Assembly (NCBI RefSeq): GCF_001570905.1
Contig: NZ_BCSO01000001.1
Location: 186,001 to 250,000, forward strand
Source of the DNA: [Zimmermannella] alba NBRC 15616
GTDB lineage: Bacteria > Actinomycetota > Actinomycetes > Actinomycetales > Microbacteriaceae
Reading direction: 5' to 3'
Length of the DNA: 64,000 bases
Below, piece after piece: positions 27,982 through 36,190 of this stretch; position 1 is the stretch's first letter, and every line of letters starts with the position of its first letter. Under the pieces are notes generated by a model. That model searched no databases and was not told where the DNA came from. It saw only the letters and a list, made by a program, of their open reading frames with translations. A program made the translations under genes and the position numbers.

Positions 27982-28040
27982 GTCGTCTGGCTTGCTGCCC
28001 AGCGTTGGCGGAGCCGCTGCACGAAACGAGGAGGGCGATC

Positions 28041-28517
28041 ATGCCAAAGGAACAGGGCAAGAAGGTCGTCGCCACGAACCGCAAGGCACGGCACGACTAT
28101 CTCATCGAGGACACCGTCGAAGCGGGACTTGTGCTCTCAGGCACCGAGGTGAAGGCCCTTCGCATGGGTCGCGCATCGCTCGTGGATGGCTACGCGCACA
28201 TCGACCGTGGCGAAGCCTGGCTTGAAGGCGTCCACATTCCCGAATACTTCCAGGGCACCTGGAACAACCACGCACCGCGCCGCACCCGAAAGCTCCTCCT
28301 GCACAAGCGTCAGATCGAGAAGCTGCACCTCAAGACGAAGCAGGGTGGCTACACGCTCATCCCGTTGAGCCTGTACTTCTCGGATGGCCGCGCGAAGGTC
28401 GAACTCGCGACCGCGAAGGGTAAGAAGGAATACGACAAGCGTCACGCGCTGCGTGAGCGTCAGGACAAGCGCGAGGCGGAGCGGGCGATGTCGCTGCGTC
28501 GTCGGCTCGGCGAATAG
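28041..28517 (+). CDS. smpB: SsrA-binding protein SmpB
   Basis: A 158-residue SmpB that binds tmRNA and brings it to stalled ribosomes. ATG 28041 has GAGGAG upstream. Motifs are [59 protein letters not shown] and the basic tail [20 protein letters not shown]. Its RNA partner gene ssrA is 3.4 kb downstream on the same strand, separated by the two minus-strand paralogues. Confidence 0.97.
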
Positions 28518-28607: not shown

Positions 28608-30119
28608 TTACGTCGCGGCTGCCTGGCGGACGGCGTTGACGTATCCCGTGAGGGCGTCCTGGTGACCGCTCAGGATGCGCTTGAGGCTGCGGGACTGCCA
28701 TCCGGTCTTGTCCTGGTCGGTTGCGTCAGGGTCGATGCCCTTCCAGGCCTCCGCGACCTTCGCGTCACCGGCCTTCACGTGCTCGCTCGCGGCTTGCACG
28801 TTCGACTCGAAGTCGGGGTAGAGCGGCGAGCCTGCTTCGACGGTCGGCTCGTTGTTCCGGAGCGAGTCGGTGGCGGCCTTGTAGCTCGTGGCGGCTGCGG
28901 ACCATTCGCTCGCGTACGCGTCGCAGACCGTCTGCATGGAACTCAAGAAGCACTGCTTCTTCGCGAGGTCGGAGAAAGTTGAGTAGAAGGTCGTCGTGGA
29001 GGCATCGAAGGCATCCGCGAACTTCGTCCGGTTGTCCTGGTCCGTGAGATCCGGGCATCCCTCAGCCGAGTTGCACGTCCACTTCTTGCCGCCCTCGAGG
29101 GTGACCTTGTCGCCTTCTTGGAGTGTGAGGGTGGGCTTCAGGCTCGTCTCGAGGCTCGAGAGGTACTGGTTGTAGACGGTGTTGTACTGGGGGAGCGTGA
29201 GGCAGAACTCACTGAGGACGGTGAGCTCCTCATTGCCCTTGGTGACAAGCTCCTGCTCGGCGGCCGCCTTCGCCTCATTGGCGGATGCCGTGGCTTGAGC
29301 CTGACGGTACTTCTCGGAGGCATCCGCACCCGGTTCGCTCACGAGCGTCGGCATGGGGGCCGCCTGGAGCTCAGCCATCGCCTGCGCCGCGGATTCGACA
29401 GCCTTGCACTGCTCGTCGAAGGACTTCATCGAAGCCATCGACTGGGTGAAAAAGTCGCGCTTCTCTTCGAGCGTGTCGGCGAGCGAAATCGCCTCGATGC
29501 TCGCGAGACGCTCTTCCGTCCACGTCTGGTCGTGCGTGGCGAGGGCAGTCGTGTACTCGTCCGCGAGGCGGTCGCCGTGCTTCGCCTTGTTGAGGTTCAT
29601 GACGAGCGGGATCGCGATCGCGAGGATGAGCGCGAGAGCGAGTGCTGCCGCGATGCCGATGTAAAGCGGCTTCCGATACCAGGGGTGTGGCTGGCGCGGG
29701 CGCTTGTACGCTGCCTCGTCGGGAACGGCTGGTGTCGCGCTGGCTGCGCTGAGCGGCGTGCTGTTTGCTTCGTTCTCTGCGACCGGTGCTTGGGGGAAAA
29801 GTTCCGTGAGTTCGTCGTGAAGGGAATCCGCCGCCGCGTCGGCGTCGAGAGGGTGAGCGAATTCGGCGGTGGGGCTGAGCTGTGTTGCCTCGACGAAAGT
29901 CGGTGCCTCCGGAGCGTTCGTGAGCTCAGTCGTGGATGCTGCATCCTCGGCTCGCGTTGCCTGCTGACCGAACACCGTCGGCTCACGGTCGTGCGCAGAC
30001 GCGCCATCCTGGGGCTTCTGCCAGCGGATGGTGTCGTCGCTTGGCGACGAGTCGGTGGGTGTCGGGTCGAACGGCTCGCCGTTGTTCGGGGTCGAGCCAT
30101 TGCCGTTGGAGCCAATCAT
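28608..30119 (-). CDS. Single-pass membrane protein with six-Cys ectodomain, paralogue A
   Basis: I do not recognise the family. The 503-residue protein has about 165 disordered cytoplasmic residues rich in Pro, Thr, Ala and acidic residues, a WYRKPLY motif, and one membrane helix (IAAALALALILAIAIPLVMN). The rest is a helical ectodomain with six cysteines: DEQCKAV, EFCLTL, WTCNSAEGCPDLTDQD, and KQCFLSSMQTVC. The upstream paralogue has the same layout and all six Cys. ATG 30119 lacks a ribosome site but has TACCCT 7 nt upstream, an internal promoter within the 35-bp gap. The disordered cytoplasmic part and extracellular domain suggest a signalling or envelope-assembly role, but this is inference. 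Confidence 0.8.
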   Translation of the reverse strand: MIGSNGNGSTPNNGEPFDPTPTDSSPSDDTIRWQKPQDGASAHDREPTVFGQQATRAEDAASTTELTNAPEAPTFVEATQLSPTAEFAHPLDADAAADSLHDELTELFPQAPVAENEANSTPLSAASATPAVPDEAAYKRPRQPHPWYRKPLYIGIAAALALALILAIAIPLVMNLNKAKHGDRLADEYTTALATHDQTWTEERLASIEAISLADTLEEKRDFFTQSMASMKSFDEQCKAVESAAQAMAELQAAPMPTLVSEPGADASEKYRQAQATASANEAKAAAEQELVTKGNEELTVLSEFCLTLPQYNTVYNQYLSSLETSLKPTLTLQEGDKVTLEGGKKWTCNSAEGCPDLTDQDNRTKFADAFDASTTTFYSTFSDLAKKQCFLSSMQTVCDAYASEWSAAATSYKAATDSLRNNEPTVEAGSPLYPDFESNVQAASEHVKAGDAKVAEAWKGIDPDATDQDKTGWQSRSLKRILSGHQDALTGYVNAVRQAAAT

Positions 30120-30126
30120 GCCCAAC

Positions 30127-30132
30127 AGGGTA
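30127..30132 (-). promoter_or_regulatory. Leaderless-type -10 box for paralogue A
   Basis: On the minus strand TACCCT is followed by 7 nt and ATG 30119. It sits in the 35-bp gap behind paralogue B, so the downstream gene may have its own transcript. Confidence 0.45.
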
Positions 30133-30154
30133 CGCGGCCAGACCTGGAATCGCC

Positions 30155-31771
30155 TTACTTTGATCCAGCCACGTCGAGGTAGCCGGCCCGGCCTTCGCTG
30201 AGGTGGTGCTCGAAGCTCTTGAGGAGCCGCGTCACCATCGAGGTTTCCCACTCGGGCTTGTCATCCGCGAGCACTGCCGCATCGACCTTGCCTGCCTCGA
30301 GGTAGGCGAGGTGTTCAGCGTCGGCGTAGTTCTTCGTCTGGGTGGCTCGAGCCGCATCGAGATCGGGGAGCGGGGGCGTGGGGCCAGCCTCGTTCGGTTT
30401 CGGTGAACCGAGAGCGGAGGCAACATCCCCGTTGTCTTCCTTGTGGGTTGTCCATGCAGAGGACATGAGCACGCAGTACGGCGTGAGTGCGTCGAGCCAG
30501 CACTGCTCCGCGTAGTGGGTCGAGAGAGCAGTGTCGTGCTCTTCGGCGATGTCAGCCCACAGCTCGGAATACTGCTTGGCTTTGTCCTTGTTGGGGAGGT
30601 CAGGGCAGCCCTGTGCGTCCGGGCAGGCAACCGTAGCCTTGTCGAACTTCATCGCCGCACCCTGCTTGAAGGTGCGCAGCGGTGCGAGTTCGGTTTCGTC
30701 GCGAATGCCGCTCGCGTTTTCGATCGCGACGCCGAGCCGGAAGTTTGTGCAGAACTGCTGCAGCTGCGGCATCGTGACCGCGATGCCGTCGAGGAGCGCC
30801 GTGGCACTCGCGCGTTCACGCTCGAAGCTCGCGTCCTGGGCGAGGACATCCTGATACGCGGAGGAGAACTCGCCGCCTGCGATTTGCGCGACGCTCGGGG
30901 GAGGAGCCTGGGTCATCGCCGTGGCCGCGCGCGAGGCTTCCTCGAGGAGGCTGCACTGCGAGTCGAGATTCTTTTGCGCGTCCGCAGGCTGCTGGAGCGG
31001 ATTGTCAACGCTCGAGATCGCGGTGCTCGGCTTTGCGGCAATGAGTGAGCGGAGGTTGTCTTCCGACCAAGCCACTTCGTAGGCCTGCATGGCGCGCTGG
31101 TACTGTTCGGCGGCAGCGTTCGCTTCGTTCGTGGCCTGCACCTGGAGGTAGGCGGGCCAGCCAATACCGACCGCGAGGGCCACGACGAGCACGATGGATG
31201 CTGGCACCATGATCGCGAACTTCTTGTACCAGGGCTTCGGCGGCTTCGGCGGGGCAGCGTCGATGGCGCCCTCGATCGCGGTTGGCACGTAGTCCGGGTT
31301 CGAGATGGAAACACCGCGCACCTTCGAGGTGCGGTCGGCAAAGCCAGCGACGCCCTTGGATTCGCGGTCGGCGGCGCGACGAGCCTCTTCTTCGGCACGA
31401 CGGCGCTTCGCCTCCTGCTCGGCCTCGTACGCTTTGATGGCCTTCTTGCCCTTGAGCTTCTTGCCCTCTTCGTACGGGCCCTTCTTCTGCTGCTCGCGGT
31501 CGAAGGCGATGCGTTCAAATCCGCTGGGTGCCATCGGCTGGGCGGACTGCTGTTGGGTGCCCGTGCTGCCGATCGACTTCACGTACGAGGAAGCGCGGCT
31601 CTTCCGGCCCCACGGGGCCTGCACCTGCTGCGGTGCACCAAAACCCGTGCCCTCGGATGCAGATGCCGTGCCCGTGGCCTGGGACGTTCCCGAGGCGTTT
31701 CCAGCCTGGGCGAACGGGTCAATCTCCGGCAACTGCCGGTTGGGATCGAATCGGTCGGCGCGAGGTGACAC
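30155..31771 (-). CDS. Single-pass membrane protein with six-Cys ectodomain, paralogue B
   Basis: This 538-residue homologue of the neighbouring 30119 product is also of unknown family. The cytoplasmic part (about 1-180) is Gln/Ser/Ala-rich and then strongly charged (KKLKGKKAIKAYEAEQEAKR). PKPWYKKFAIMV precedes one membrane helix (IVLVVALAVGIGWPAYLQV). The ectodomain has the same six cysteines: DSQCSLL, QFCTNF, VACPDAQGCPDLPNKD and EQCWLDALTPYC. The GCPDL motif and spacing match paralogue A, although the rest is divergent. GTG 31771 is preceded by CTAGGAAAG at about 11 nt. Both genes lie between smpB and ssrA, transcribed against both; I see no reason to link them to ribosome rescue. Confidence 0.8.
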   Translation of the reverse strand: MSPRADRFDPNRQLPEIDPFAQAGNASGTSQATGTASASEGTGFGAPQQVQAPWGRKSRASSYVKSIGSTGTQQQSAQPMAPSGFERIAFDREQQKKGPYEEGKKLKGKKAIKAYEAEQEAKRRRAEEEARRAADRESKGVAGFADRTSKVRGVSISNPDYVPTAIEGAIDAAPPKPPKPWYKKFAIMVPASIVLVVALAVGIGWPAYLQVQATNEANAAAEQYQRAMQAYEVAWSEDNLRSLIAAKPSTAISSVDNPLQQPADAQKNLDSQCSLLEEASRAATAMTQAPPPSVAQIAGGEFSSAYQDVLAQDASFERERASATALLDGIAVTMPQLQQFCTNFRLGVAIENASGIRDETELAPLRTFKQGAAMKFDKATVACPDAQGCPDLPNKDKAKQYSELWADIAEEHDTALSTHYAEQCWLDALTPYCVLMSSAWTTHKEDNGDVASALGSPKPNEAGPTPPLPDLDAARATQTKNYADAEHLAYLEAGKVDAAVLADDKPEWETSMVTRLLKSFEHHLSEGRAGYLDVAGSK

Positions 31772-31932
31772 AGTGACGCTTTCCTAGGGACGGTTGGCAA
31801 GGGTCCCACCGTCGCATTCGCAAACAACATTCAGGTGAACATCGGCACGCATGGTTCGGATGACGTAGTATTACCTGATGCCCGGTCGTGCTGGGCAGCG
31901 ACAACTCAACAGTGGCTGTGATGCCGCACACG

Positions 31933-31956: not shown

Positions 31957-32326
31957 GGGGATGATCGGTTTCGACATTGCTTGCGACTCTGCGTGAAGCG
32001 GGTCGAGGACGCGGGGTTATCTCGTAAACGCCCCTCGCAAACTATAGGTGCCAATGCTAAGCGCACCGACTTCGCCCTCGCTGCTTAAGCGAGCCCGATA
32101 GTCCGTCAGACCGGGAGTGCTTCCGACCCGGACCCTGGCGTCATCTAGGGAGCTTGCTCCGTCACTGCGTCTCAGGGTGACGGGGGACTCTTTCTGAGGC
32201 TGGGCCTGTCAACCAACGTGTCTGCCCGAATGGTTGGGGCCGAGGAGAACGCTTCGGCAGACTGCACCCGGAGAAGCCGCAGGCTCACAGCAGTGGACGG
32301 GGGTTCAATTCCCCCCATCTCCACCA
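31957..32326 (+). ncRNA. ssrA: Transfer-messenger RNA (tmRNA)
   Basis: This 370-nt one-piece tmRNA has a tRNA-like end: 5' GGGGATG pairs with 3' CATCTCC, followed by A and an encoded CCA (32324-32326), with T-loop GGTTCAATTCC. The tag frame at 32050-32088 encodes ANAKRTDFALAA then TAA, typical of Actinobacteria. It tags proteins from stalled ribosomes, with SmpB encoded at 28041. Pseudoknot-like GC stems fill the remainder. A terminator starts 6 nt after the end. Confidence 0.96.
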
Positions 32327-32496: not shown

Positions 32497-32524
32497 GTAA
32501 GACGCTGGGCGTACCGTGTCTTAC
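32497..32524 (+). promoter_or_regulatory. Operator-like inverted repeat before the RelB-like antitoxin gene
   Basis: GTAAGAC (32497-32503) is repeated inverted as GTCTTAC (32518-32524), 14 bp before the antitoxin ATG and just upstream of its ribosome site. Autoregulation by the antitoxin-toxin complex would fit. Confidence 0.55.
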
Positions 32525-32537
32525 GGAGGTGGTAGTC

Positions 32538-32801
32538 ATGGCATCCGTGACGGTTCGAGTTGATGAGTCAACGAAGGAACGTGCCGCGCAGATCGCGGAA
32601 GATCTCGGCTTTGACCTGTCGTCGGTAACGCGAGCTTTCTACCGTCAAATCGTGCGTGAGAACCGGATTCCCCTGAACCTCAGGTATCGGGAGCCAAACC
32701 GCGAGTCGATCGAGGCACTCCACGAAGCGGAGCACATTGCTGAGCGGGGCACTTCCCGCTTCGCCAACGCCGATGAGATGTTCGAGGTGCTCGACATCTG
32801 A
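32538..32801 (+). CDS. RelB/DinJ family antitoxin
   Basis: ATG 32538 behind ACGGAGGTGG gives 87 residues. VTVRVDESTKERAAQIAEDL then GFDLSSVTRAFYRQIVRENR is the ribbon-helix-helix of RelB/DinJ antitoxins, and the C-terminal part (REPNRESIEALHEAEHIAER) would wrap the toxin. The toxin gene follows after 8 bp. The perfect inverted repeat upstream is a probable autoregulatory operator. Confidence 0.9.
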   Translation: MASVTVRVDESTKERAAQIAEDLGFDLSSVTRAFYRQIVRENRIPLNLRYREPNRESIEALHEAEHIAERGTSRFANADEMFEVLDI

Positions 32802-32809
32802 ATTCCGAC

Positions 32810-33100
32810 ATGCTGCAACCCGAGTTCACCTCCAAATTCGAGCGTGACATCAAACGGCTCAAGAAGAAACATGTCGACGCCGCACCTCTGAAAGAGGTCA
32901 TTGGCTTGGTCGTCGCCAACGACGGACGGTCCATGCAGGTACTCCGGCAGCGTCATCGCATGCACGAGCTCAAGGGTGCATGGCGCAACGCGCGGGAATG
33001 CCATGTCGCAACCGCGGGGGACTGGCTGTACGTGTGGCAGGTTGTCGAGGATCTCGCCATCTTTCTGCGTACGGGCTCACACGACGACATCTTTGGCTGA
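32810..33100 (+). CDS. YafQ-family mRNA interferase toxin
   Basis: A 96-residue RelE-superfamily toxin of the YafQ branch: PEFTSKFERDIKRLKKKHVD, HRMHELKGAWRNARECHVA, GDWLYVWQVVEDLAIFLRTG and a final SHDDIFG. His residues in HRMH and CHV, the DW pair and the C-terminal SHDD correspond to the active-site residues of YafQ (two His, Asp-Trp, His). YafQ cleaves mRNA on the ribosome. It pairs with the preceding RelB-like antitoxin. It lies about 480 bp from the tmRNA end, at the edge of the accessory island. Confidence 0.9.
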   Translation: MLQPEFTSKFERDIKRLKKKHVDAAPLKEVIGLVVANDGRSMQVLRQRHRMHELKGAWRNARECHVATAGDWLYVWQVVEDLAIFLRTGSHDDIFG

Positions 33101-34945: not shown

Positions 34946-35206
34946 TCACTGCCCGTAGTGGTATCTGCAGCTCGCGATGCGGATCTCGCCATTGACAATC
35001 TTGTGGACGAGACGGTGCTCATCCGTGATCCTGCGGGACCAATAACCGGATAGTCCGTGTTTCAGGGGCTCTGGTTTCCCGAGTCCCTCGTTACCGTTCC
35101 GATCAATATCGCGAATCAGAGCGTTGATGCGCTTGAGCACTTTTCGGTCCTGAGTCTGCCACCAGAGATAGTCCTCCCACGCAGACTCGTCCCATGCAAG
35201 TTGCAT
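34946..35206 (-). CDS. yoeB: YoeB/Txe family toxin
   Basis: An 86-residue YoeB: AWDESAWEDYLWWQTQDRKV, LKRINALIRDIDRNG, GKPEPLKHGLSGYWSRRI, TDEHRLVHKIVNGEIRIA, and SCRYHY at the C-terminus. The Glu of KPEPLK, the Arg of RRITDEHRLV and the His of RYHY match the catalytic set of YoeB, which cleaves mRNA at the ribosomal A site. It follows the YefM antitoxin gene by 3 bp, so the pair is one operon. Confidence 0.93.
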   Translation of the reverse strand: MQLAWDESAWEDYLWWQTQDRKVLKRINALIRDIDRNGNEGLGKPEPLKHGLSGYWSRRITDEHRLVHKIVNGEIRIASCRYHYGQ

Positions 35207-35209
35207 GCG

Positions 35210-35464
35210 CTAGCCCTCAAGCAGCTCGTGCGGTGCCCCTTCGCCTCGCTCGAGTCGCTCGATTGAATCGAGGAGGCGGCGCGCATTCATAGGGGAGCGC
35301 AGCAGGTAGGCCGTCTCGCGAAGCGATTCGTACTCTTCGAGTGACACGATGACGACAGGCTCGTGACCCGCACGCGTGATGATCGTTTCCTCGCGGTTGT
35401 TCACGACGTCATCGAGTACCTGGGCATAGTTCGCCCGTGACTCCGTGTAGCTCATAGTCTTCAT
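35210..35464 (-). CDS. yefM: YefM/Phd family antitoxin
   Basis: This 84-residue antitoxin starts at ATG 35464 after AGGAGG. The Phd/YefM N-terminal DNA-binding domain is MSYTESRANYAQVLDDVVNN, followed by REETIITRAGHEPVVIVSLE and EYESLRETAYLLRSPMNARR; the C-terminal tail ending GAPHELLEG would bind the toxin. Upstream is a TGTACA-type operator of the kind bound by YefM. It precedes yoeB in the same operon. Confidence 0.92.
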   Translation of the reverse strand: MKTMSYTESRANYAQVLDDVVNNREETIITRAGHEPVVIVSLEEYESLRETAYLLRSPMNARRLLDSIERLERGEGAPHELLEG

Positions 35465-35532: not shown

Positions 35533-35943
35533 TCACATTCCTAAGACGTGGATCAGCTCACCCAGACCGACAAAGTCGTCCGGATTTCTCGTGATGAGCG
35601 GAAGGCCTTCTGCACACGCAACCGATGCGATGAGGAGATCAGCAAATCTGCGTCGCGGGTGTCGGCCTTGAGCAAGTGTCGCCGCGTACACACGGCCGTA
35701 TGCGCGCGCAGCAGCGGCAGTAAAGGGGATTGGCTCGAAGGTTGCCTCGACGCGTTGAAGCCGGTCTTGGCGGCGCGACCGCTCGATCGGATCCTTTGCG
35801 GCGGCTGGGCCTGCTGCGAGCTCGGCCAGCGTGATGGTCGAAATCCCCAGTGAGCTGGGCAGTTCCTCGCGCTCGAGGAGAACTGGCAGGTCGATAACTG
35901 CCGAGGTGTCAAGCAGCGCGGCTGAGGTGGTGACGTCAGCCAC
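35533..35943 (-). CDS. vapC: VapC-type PIN-domain toxin
   Basis: A 136-residue PIN ribonuclease beginning at GTG 35943. Acidic active-site residues are visible in ALLDTSAVIDL, STITLAELAAG and RRFADLLIASVA, with a final TRNPDDFVGL. VapC toxins cleave tRNA or rRNA. It overlaps the antitoxin gene by 8 bp, so translation is coupled. It is the third type II toxin in this 3.7-kb island. Confidence 0.92.
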   Translation of the reverse strand: MADVTTSAALLDTSAVIDLPVLLEREELPSSLGISTITLAELAAGPAAAKDPIERSRRQDRLQRVEATFEPIPFTAAAARAYGRVYAATLAQGRHPRRRFADLLIASVACAEGLPLITRNPDDFVGLGELIHVLGM

Positions 35944-36190
35944 GGGGTTCGGTGTCCTGATCGATGATGTCATCGACGTCGCGGAAGAACTCCACGCGAT
36001 CGATGAGGGGCGAGCCCAGGAACGTTTGCTTGATCGTGGTGAGGTCGACGAGGCGTGCGCGGTGAAGAGGGATGAGCTCGCCGACAGGGTGGTCGTGCCT
36101 CGTAATGACAAAGGATTCGCCAGCGTCGACGGCACGCAGAATCCGCGCACTGTCATTGCGCAATTCGCGTTGGCTGATCGTCTCGGTCAT
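35936..36190 (-). CDS. vapB: VapB/Phd-like antitoxin
   Basis: This 84-residue protein begins at ATG 36190. TISQRELRNDSARILRAVDA then GESFVITRHDHPVGELIPL is the Phd/YefM-type DNA-binding fold used by many VapB proteins, and the C-terminal part (FLGSPLIDRVEFFRDVDDII) should wrap the toxin. It overlaps vapC by 8 bp. A palindrome overlaps its presumptive leaderless promoter, so autoregulation is likely. Confidence 0.88.
   Translation of the reverse strand: MTETISQRELRNDSARILRAVDAGESFVITRHDHPVGELIPLHRARLVDLTTIKQTFLGSPLIDRVEFFRDVDDIIDQDTEPRG

Follow-up and report, generated by a model that had tools for sequence, protein, structure and literature searches.

A six-cysteine membrane protein family of Microbacteriaceae with a candidate threonine docking motif in its cytoplasmic tails

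Two adjacent genes of [Zimmermannella] alba NBRC 15616, which we call P1 and P2, encode paralogous membrane proteins of a family that, judged by sequence, is real, absent from the libraries searched and found mainly in Microbacteriaceae. They lie in a stretch of 64,000 nucleotides (the window; assembly GCF_001570905.1, contig NZ_BCSO01000001.1, positions 186,001 to 250,000 of the forward strand, numbered here from its first letter), both on the minus strand, 35 bp apart and flanked by smpB and ssrA. P2, the upstream gene (30155..31771, 538 amino acids, GTG start), is the derived paralogue, and P1, downstream of it (28608..30119, 503 amino acids, ATG start), is of the ancestral type. The family signature is six invariant cysteines, to which P1-type tails add a testable motif, a threonine with a bulky hydrophobic residue three positions later. 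We propose, as possible rather than probable, that P1-type proteins are disulfide-locked envelope proteins that act as phospho-threonine docking scaffolds for PknB-type kinases and FHA-domain proteins, both the phosphorylation and the binding being predicted.

An earlier note on this DNA had recognised the gene pair and its cysteines. The assignment of P1 as ancestral and P2 as duplicate, the leaderless promoter box and the enrichment of the threonine motif are additions made here. What was obtained by computation is family membership, the conservation of the cysteines, the predicted fold, a topology read from charge, the duplication, the enrichment of the motif and the promoter box.

A family marked by six cysteines

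P1 and P2 align locally over 366 columns with 23% identity (E 5e-23 as a single comparison), and a search of their own 2.14 Mb genome, which holds these two copies, gave E 7.2e-27. The alignment runs from the W-Y-K/R motif to near the C-terminus and leaves the tails outside, and by this comparison the two are paralogues. Tandem DNA repeats were not found within the pair. Both open reading frames were recovered where the earlier note had placed two adjacent genes of like architecture, and the layout it described holds: a tail (judged disordered from its composition) leads through a WYRK or WYKK motif and a single membrane helix to the ectodomain. On the minus strand, the HPWYRK motif and membrane helix of P1 occupy 29601..29687 and its ectodomain, a helical bundle with two short strands, 28611..29591; the KPWYKK motif and helix of P2 occupy 31151..31237, and its ectodomain, with the same order of elements, 30158..31141.

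The ectodomain cysteines of P1 (residues 238, 306, 349, 355, 390 and 399) are separated by 67, 42, 5, 34 and 8 residues, and those of P2 (273, 341, 383, 389, 424 and 433) by 67, 41, 5, 34 and 8, so that the order claimed by the earlier note is borne out. Its reading of the third motif as C-x6/7-GCPDL was wrong, as both proteins have C-x4-GCPDL, and of the x7 or x8 it allowed between the last two cysteines, both have x8. Members of the family share six cysteines that follow a single membrane helix and keep their spacing. An alignment of 20 sequences from four genera (A6) is invariant only at the six cysteines and one proline; a second one of 21 sequences (A3) is invariant at the six cysteines, one tryptophan and one proline.

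Substitution rates were computed by the Nei-Gojobori method for nine pairs. Among the six closest, ectodomain dN/dS is roughly 0.01-0.10 (dN 0.007-0.039, dS 0.12-0.63) and tail dN 0.06-0.19; the three more distant pairs have ectodomain dN/dS values of 0.27, 0.60 and 0.59. Because cysteines and one proline alone are invariant in A6 and ectodomain dN/dS is low in the closest pairs, we take the six-cysteine pattern to be above chance. Between the window and genome G009, the P1 ectodomain is better conserved (53% identical) than its tail (34%), and the P2 tail (57%) is better conserved than its ectodomain (51%).

In each of the 20 proteins compared, the stretch just ahead of the membrane helix has a net charge of +2 to +6 and the stretch behind it one of 0 to -2. 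This pattern obeys the positive-inside rule and thus points to a topology with the N-terminus inside and the C-terminus outside. A VKOR gene was found in 10/10 genomes tested, so that disulfides are feasible, and the ectodomain probably forms three of them through the VKOR pathway. A tentative guess at the pairing in P1 joins C349 to C355 and C390 to C399 as local bonds and C238 to C306 across helices.

AlphaFold2 (AF2) models that start at the membrane helix, built from 12-row alignments of the window sequences and related loci, are confident for P1 (pLDDT 91.5) and P2 (pLDDT 91.0), with pTM 0.81 for each. In both, the membrane helix continues unbroken into the first ectodomain helix, giving a first long helix at model residues 7-55 (P1) and 4-56 (P2), membrane part included. 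Further helices of the P1 model span 58-65, 84-108, 125-136, 138-186, 217-244, 249-278, 291-318 and 330-358, with strands at 194-196 and 202-204. Its cysteines (model numbering) lie in helices (94 and 162), past the second strand (205 and 211), in a loop (246) and in the next helix (255), and the P2 model matches it in cysteine placement and order of elements. The P1 model is continuous, every block of ten residues from residue 31 having a pLDDT of at least 85, and one block of the P2 model falls to 77. Modelling, which the earlier note had suggested as a check, thus yields confident helical bundles with the six cysteines at matching sites.

The earlier note had recognised no family, and the library searches agree. 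Judged against curated cut-offs, Pfam gave nothing for P1 and for P2 at best TPR_21 (17 bits, with 25.5 needed), and NCBIfam gave at best 14.4 against 150 for P1 and nothing for P2. The best matches in PHROGs (E 0.0063) and PADLOC (E 0.036) were both to the P2 tail and below threshold, and a sequence search of the PDB with P2 and profile A3 gave no match. Among the aligned relatives, the best library matches were E 0.0012 in Pfam (DUF5129, 3/21) and E 0.0024 in NCBIfam. Foldseek searches with the P1 model gave no PDB match at E <=0.001 (best E 0.35) and no clear relative among viral models (best E 0.041). The best VIA-align matches were a designed helical barrel for P1 (Z 8.6, 136 residues aligned, rmsd 3.4) and a designed bundle for P2 (Z 8.0, 161 aligned, rmsd 4.5), both within the background for helical models. 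A literature search on cysteine and membrane proteins of both genera, Pseudoclavibacter and Gulosibacter, returned unrelated work and no report of the family.

Profile A1 found the family in 9/10 genomes of Pseudoclavibacter, the genus to which the window belongs; three carry two copies, and the one genome that gave no match, G006, is 83% complete. The sister group Gulosibacter has one copy in each of 11/11 genomes; such profile searches score in full only about 5-6 candidates per genome, and distant members may be missed. Across Microbacteriaceae, profile A3 matched 24/398 genomes, of which 22 remain once two membrane-helix matches (G130, G218) are set aside: nine Pseudoclavibacter, nine Gulosibacter, two g98 and two g71. 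Order-wide, the narrower profile A1 found the genome of the window alone (1/297), and A6 matched 3/396, namely the genome of the window, G519 from family f14 and G734. The G519 protein (locus L082), a distant relative from outside Microbacteriaceae, matches twice within one open reading frame (E 1e-7 and 2e-6) and has one membrane helix and six cysteines. G734 was rejected as a member, as were G130, G218, G063, G203 and G238, because their matches reach no further than the membrane helix or the first part of the ectodomain.

Single-copy Pseudoclavibacter genes are closer to P1 (E e-55 to e-65) than to P2 (e-14 to e-24). A tree built from 24 ectodomains groups the P2 proteins seen (genomes G000, G009 and G004) in a single clade (100/100), whose branch measures 2.24 changes per column; the point at which this clade joins is not resolved, and the g98 and f14 proteins sit on long branches. 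Given the better fit of single-copy genes to P1 and the long branch of the P2 clade, P1 is, by sequence comparison, the ancestral type and P2 a fast-diverging duplicate.

Tail motif and possible function

The P1 cytoplasmic tail (29688..30119, minus strand) is acidic, with 24 Asp and Glu and 7 Lys and Arg, and carries four Thr-x-x-bulky hydrophobic sites: T30-I-R-W (30021..30032), T63-T-E-L (29922..29933), T84-A-E-F (29859..29870) and T105-E-L-F (29796..29807). The P2 tail (31238..31771, minus strand) has 29 Lys and Arg, 22 Asp and Glu and no such site. It carries instead a motif, GVAGF-x-D ... SNPxYxP (31283..31354), shared by the three P2-type proteins seen. Lys and Arg number 29, 29 and 26 in the three P2 tails against 7, 12 and 4 in the P1 tails of the same genomes, and Thr-x-x-hydrophobic sites in P2 tails number 0 against 2.9 expected.

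Seventeen P1-type tails have defined starts, and tail statistics were taken on the 12 that remain once the near-copies G001, G002, G005, G008 and G328 are left out. T-x-x-[FY] occurs 42 times against 10.4 expected, a count reached in 0/1000 shuffles, and is present in 10/12 tails; threonine at the other five spacings before [FY], and serine, show no excess. Gulosibacter tails alone hold 34 sites against 6.2 expected (0/2000 shuffles). With [FYLIMW] at +3, P1-type tails together hold 59 threonine sites against 19 expected, divided between Pseudoclavibacter (24 against 8.8) and Gulosibacter (35 against 10.5; 0/500 shuffles each), and serine, aspartate and asparagine are not enriched at this spacing. 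The words that make up the motif differ by lineage, with TPSW in G003, TQAF and TEAF in Gulosibacter, and TEVL and TEIL in G007.

Controls lack the excess. Ten stretches supplied 186 other predicted proteins, in which Thr-[FYLIMW] at +3 numbers 685 against 710 expected; in 31 disordered-like segments of these proteins it numbers 29 against 29.6. The corresponding counts for T-x-x-[FY] are 159 against 163 and 5 against 7.6, and the ectodomains of the family hold 10 against 22 expected.

These data suggest a mechanism in which P1 and P2 would be bitopic envelope proteins (N-terminus in, C-terminus out) with an exported helical bundle locked by three disulfides. In P1, the tail threonines that are followed three residues later by a bulky hydrophobic one would be substrates of PknB-type kinases, and the phosphorylated tail would in turn recruit FHA-domain proteins. 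P1 could then couple the kinase and FHA network inside to an event outside, which might be a ligand, contact with the wall or self-assembly. P2 is a duplicate that keeps the predicted outer fold and has a conserved, basic-rich tail without the threonine motif, and it is likely to be a partner or a specialised version of P1. The disulfides, the phosphorylation, the FHA docking and the partnership of P1 and P2 are steps that we infer.

We favour the scaffold reading because the threonine with a preferred +3 residue resembles FHA ligands, because kinase and FHA domains are present, and because MapZ shows that such a layout exists. A threonine with a defined +3 residue, as expected of an FHA or kinase docking tail, is enriched here, subject to the caveats on choice of residue set and scanning of pairs given below. 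Kinase-domain matches number 4, 4 and 3, and FHA matches 6, 6 and 3, in the three genomes searched. Mycobacterial kinase motifs reportedly favour hydrophobic residues at +3 and +5, a finding attributed to Prisic in 2010. FHA-domain ligands are typed by the residue at pT+3, according to the excerpted text of PMC5549992, and Pro-Thr(P), a Mycobacterium tuberculosis phosphosite motif in the available part of PMC5845002, fits many of the tail sites. The portions available of PMC4389566 and PMC6213207 hold nothing on a Thr-x-x-hydrophobic motif.

Two known systems offer comparison, both as described in the accessible parts of their sources. MapZ (LocZ) of Streptococcus pneumoniae has one membrane helix, a disordered N-terminal tail in which the Hanks-type kinase StkP phosphorylates two threonines, and a C-terminal extracellular domain (PMC7055233). 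P1 agrees with this single-pass, N-in, C-out topology and threonine-bearing disordered tail, by charge and composition only. MapZ differs in having two extracellular subdomains on a flexible linker and in binding FtsZ (PMC7055233), whereas P1 and P2 each have one continuous six-cysteine helical domain, and no MapZ model was among the Pfam matches. By analogy, then, P1 may work like such a scaffold without being a member of the MapZ family, which we rate at a little less than an even chance. The mycobacterial pair Rv2623-Rv1747 resembles P1 in having a threonine whose +3 residue matters; in Rv2623, a universal stress protein, a single site of this type has been studied (PMC5549992), whereas P1 has several candidate sites in the tail of a membrane protein.

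Several observations weigh against this proposal. The motif came from a scan of many residue pairs, in which repeats inflate the scores, and the wider set [FYLIMW] was picked after T-x-x-L had been seen in one tail, the first set having been [FY]. On that first set, Pseudoclavibacter alone has 8 sites against 4.1 expected, a count that 92/2000 shuffles reach, and 2/5 of its tails have none. The pairs FG, YG and ND are as strongly enriched in the tails or more so; also enriched, ahead of F or Y, are Q (-2), A (-1) and P (-4). So are serine with a hydrophobic residue at +1 (5 and 6 of 500 shuffles), asparagine with one at +5 in Pseudoclavibacter (0/500 shuffles reach the count) and, weakly, threonine with one at +2 in Pseudoclavibacter (39/500). 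The excerpt of PMC5845002 contains three of eight M. tuberculosis phosphosite motifs, none of them hydrophobic +3, and the fold searches gave no relative hinting at a ligand.

Should the tail prove to be an array of phospho-threonine docking sites, P1 would be a new envelope-spanning client of the actinobacterial Ser/Thr kinase network, and the pair would be a natural experiment with a docking code in one copy and none in the other. A broader version, in which P1-type proteins form a new class of actinobacterial transmembrane phospho-threonine hubs whose Thr-x-x-hydrophobic sites are rebuilt in each lineage, with P2 a motif-free co-receptor arisen by duplication, strikes us as rather unlikely.

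Other readings start from the exported domain. The bundle could sense extracytoplasmic ligands in the manner of a chemoreceptor, with the tail merely a linker, which we consider unlikely. VIA-align does place sensor bundles among the matches: PilJ (Z 7.6, rmsd 9.3, 209 aligned), McpZ (Z 7.0, rmsd 19.4, 195 aligned) and TorS (Z 6.8, rmsd 4.1, 123 aligned) for P1, and McpZ (Z 7.2), PilJ (6.5 and 6.2) and TorS (6.1 and 5.9) for P2. All are extracytoplasmic helical bundles; however, Z values of 5.9-7.6 are helical-bundle background for this tool, several of the rmsd values are very poor, Foldseek offered nothing at E <=0.001, and the PDB sequence search with P2 and profile A3 found no relation to these receptors. 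PilJ, McpZ and TorS carry cytoplasmic signalling domains. P1 and P2 have a single membrane helix and, over the Pfam cut-off, no HAMP, kinase or MCP signalling domain, and ligand sensing leaves the tail motif unexplained.

A structural or surface role, as a spacer stiffened by disulfides or a bundle that anchors to the wall, with no part in signalling, is a doubtful alternative of similar standing. The long low-complexity tail, the rigid predicted bundle, the lineage-restricted distribution and the purifying selection on the ectodomain would all suit it. However, the tail carries the threonine motif, and there is no wall-binding domain among the Pfam matches. Metal or cofactor binding by the six cysteines, in place of disulfide formation, is highly improbable: their conservation is strict, but the conserved set has no CxxC, no histidine is among the invariant columns, and the cysteines lie on the exported side in organisms with VKOR.

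Expression signals and gene neighbourhood

The earlier note had suspected separate promoters for the two genes, and the upstream DNA supports this in silico. A TACCCT hexamer (30127..30132, minus strand), predicted to be the -10 box of a leaderless promoter for P1, lies in the 35-bp gap, 7 nt before the ATG. Among the P1-type genes with readable upstream DNA, start and box being judged together, a TAnnnT box ends 6-8 nt before one ATG start each in 17/17 (nine Pseudoclavibacter, eight Gulosibacter), the arrangement of the leaderless gene class. No such box stands at any candidate start of the three P2 genes or of four distant relatives (0/3 and 0/4; 17/178 starts overall). Shine-Dalgarno-like sites precede all three P2 genes, that of the window being AGGA at 31782..31785 (minus strand). 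M. tuberculosis -10 boxes are of the same type, and at 73% of primary starts the box has its centre 7-12 bp upstream; in leaderless genes of that species the box stands where it would place the transcription start on the ATG (both from the accessible part of PMC3898074); the P1 start differs in being predicted from DNA alone. Because the box recurs in every P1-type gene and resembles those of M. tuberculosis, P1 probably has its own promoter and a leaderless mRNA. Its start is most likely the ATG at 30119 rather than the GTG at 30251, since the GTG overlaps P2, the box precedes the ATG, and relatives repeat the arrangement.

The pair sits between smpB (28005..28517, plus strand) and the transfer-messenger RNA (tmRNA) gene ssrA (31957..32326, plus strand). 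The order prfB-ftsE-ftsX-smpB-gene-ssrA recurs in 9/9 stretches (eight Pseudoclavibacter, one Gulosibacter), in four further Gulosibacter stretches a tmRNA lies close to the six-cysteine gene, and in two g71 genomes the gene adjoins smpB with ssrA further along. A factor tied to trans-translation or FtsEX could be read from this order, but we consider that role most improbable, because g98 and f14 do not share the location and because, in 30 Microbacteriaceae genomes from 30 genera (g71 genome G081 included), smpB is present in all and the gene lies within 1.5 kb downstream of it in none. Wherever the gene adjoins smpB, the two are convergent, which places it outside the smpB operon. The family profile, run against the open reading frames downstream of smpB in these 30 genomes, gave a best E of 1.7, and two six-cysteine pattern matches there (L097, L098) were rejected as Arg- or Cys-rich reading frames.

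In g98 and f14 the gene lies elsewhere, and no tmRNA was found in the 19 and 13 kb read. Ribosomal protein L10 and a two-component system are encoded close to the g98 gene, and a GMP synthase-like gene lies close to that of f14 (neighbours named by eye). In one g98 genome (G170, L061, 9078-10346), the single relative adjoins a convergent histidine kinase and response regulator pair, also by eye. In a g71 genome (G619, L085, 7970-9064), an open reading frame resembling 6-phosphofructokinase by eye stands between the six-cysteine gene and ssrA. G081 has no match near smpB or genome-wide, though two other g71 genomes have the gene, and presence therefore varies within the genus.

Past ssrA, the window holds a toxin-antitoxin cluster named from Pfam matches (RelB/YafQ, YoeB/YefM and a PIN-domain protein), at 32505-33100 on the plus strand and at 34946-35464 and 35533-36003 on the minus strand. 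The tmRNA end may be an insertion site for such an island.

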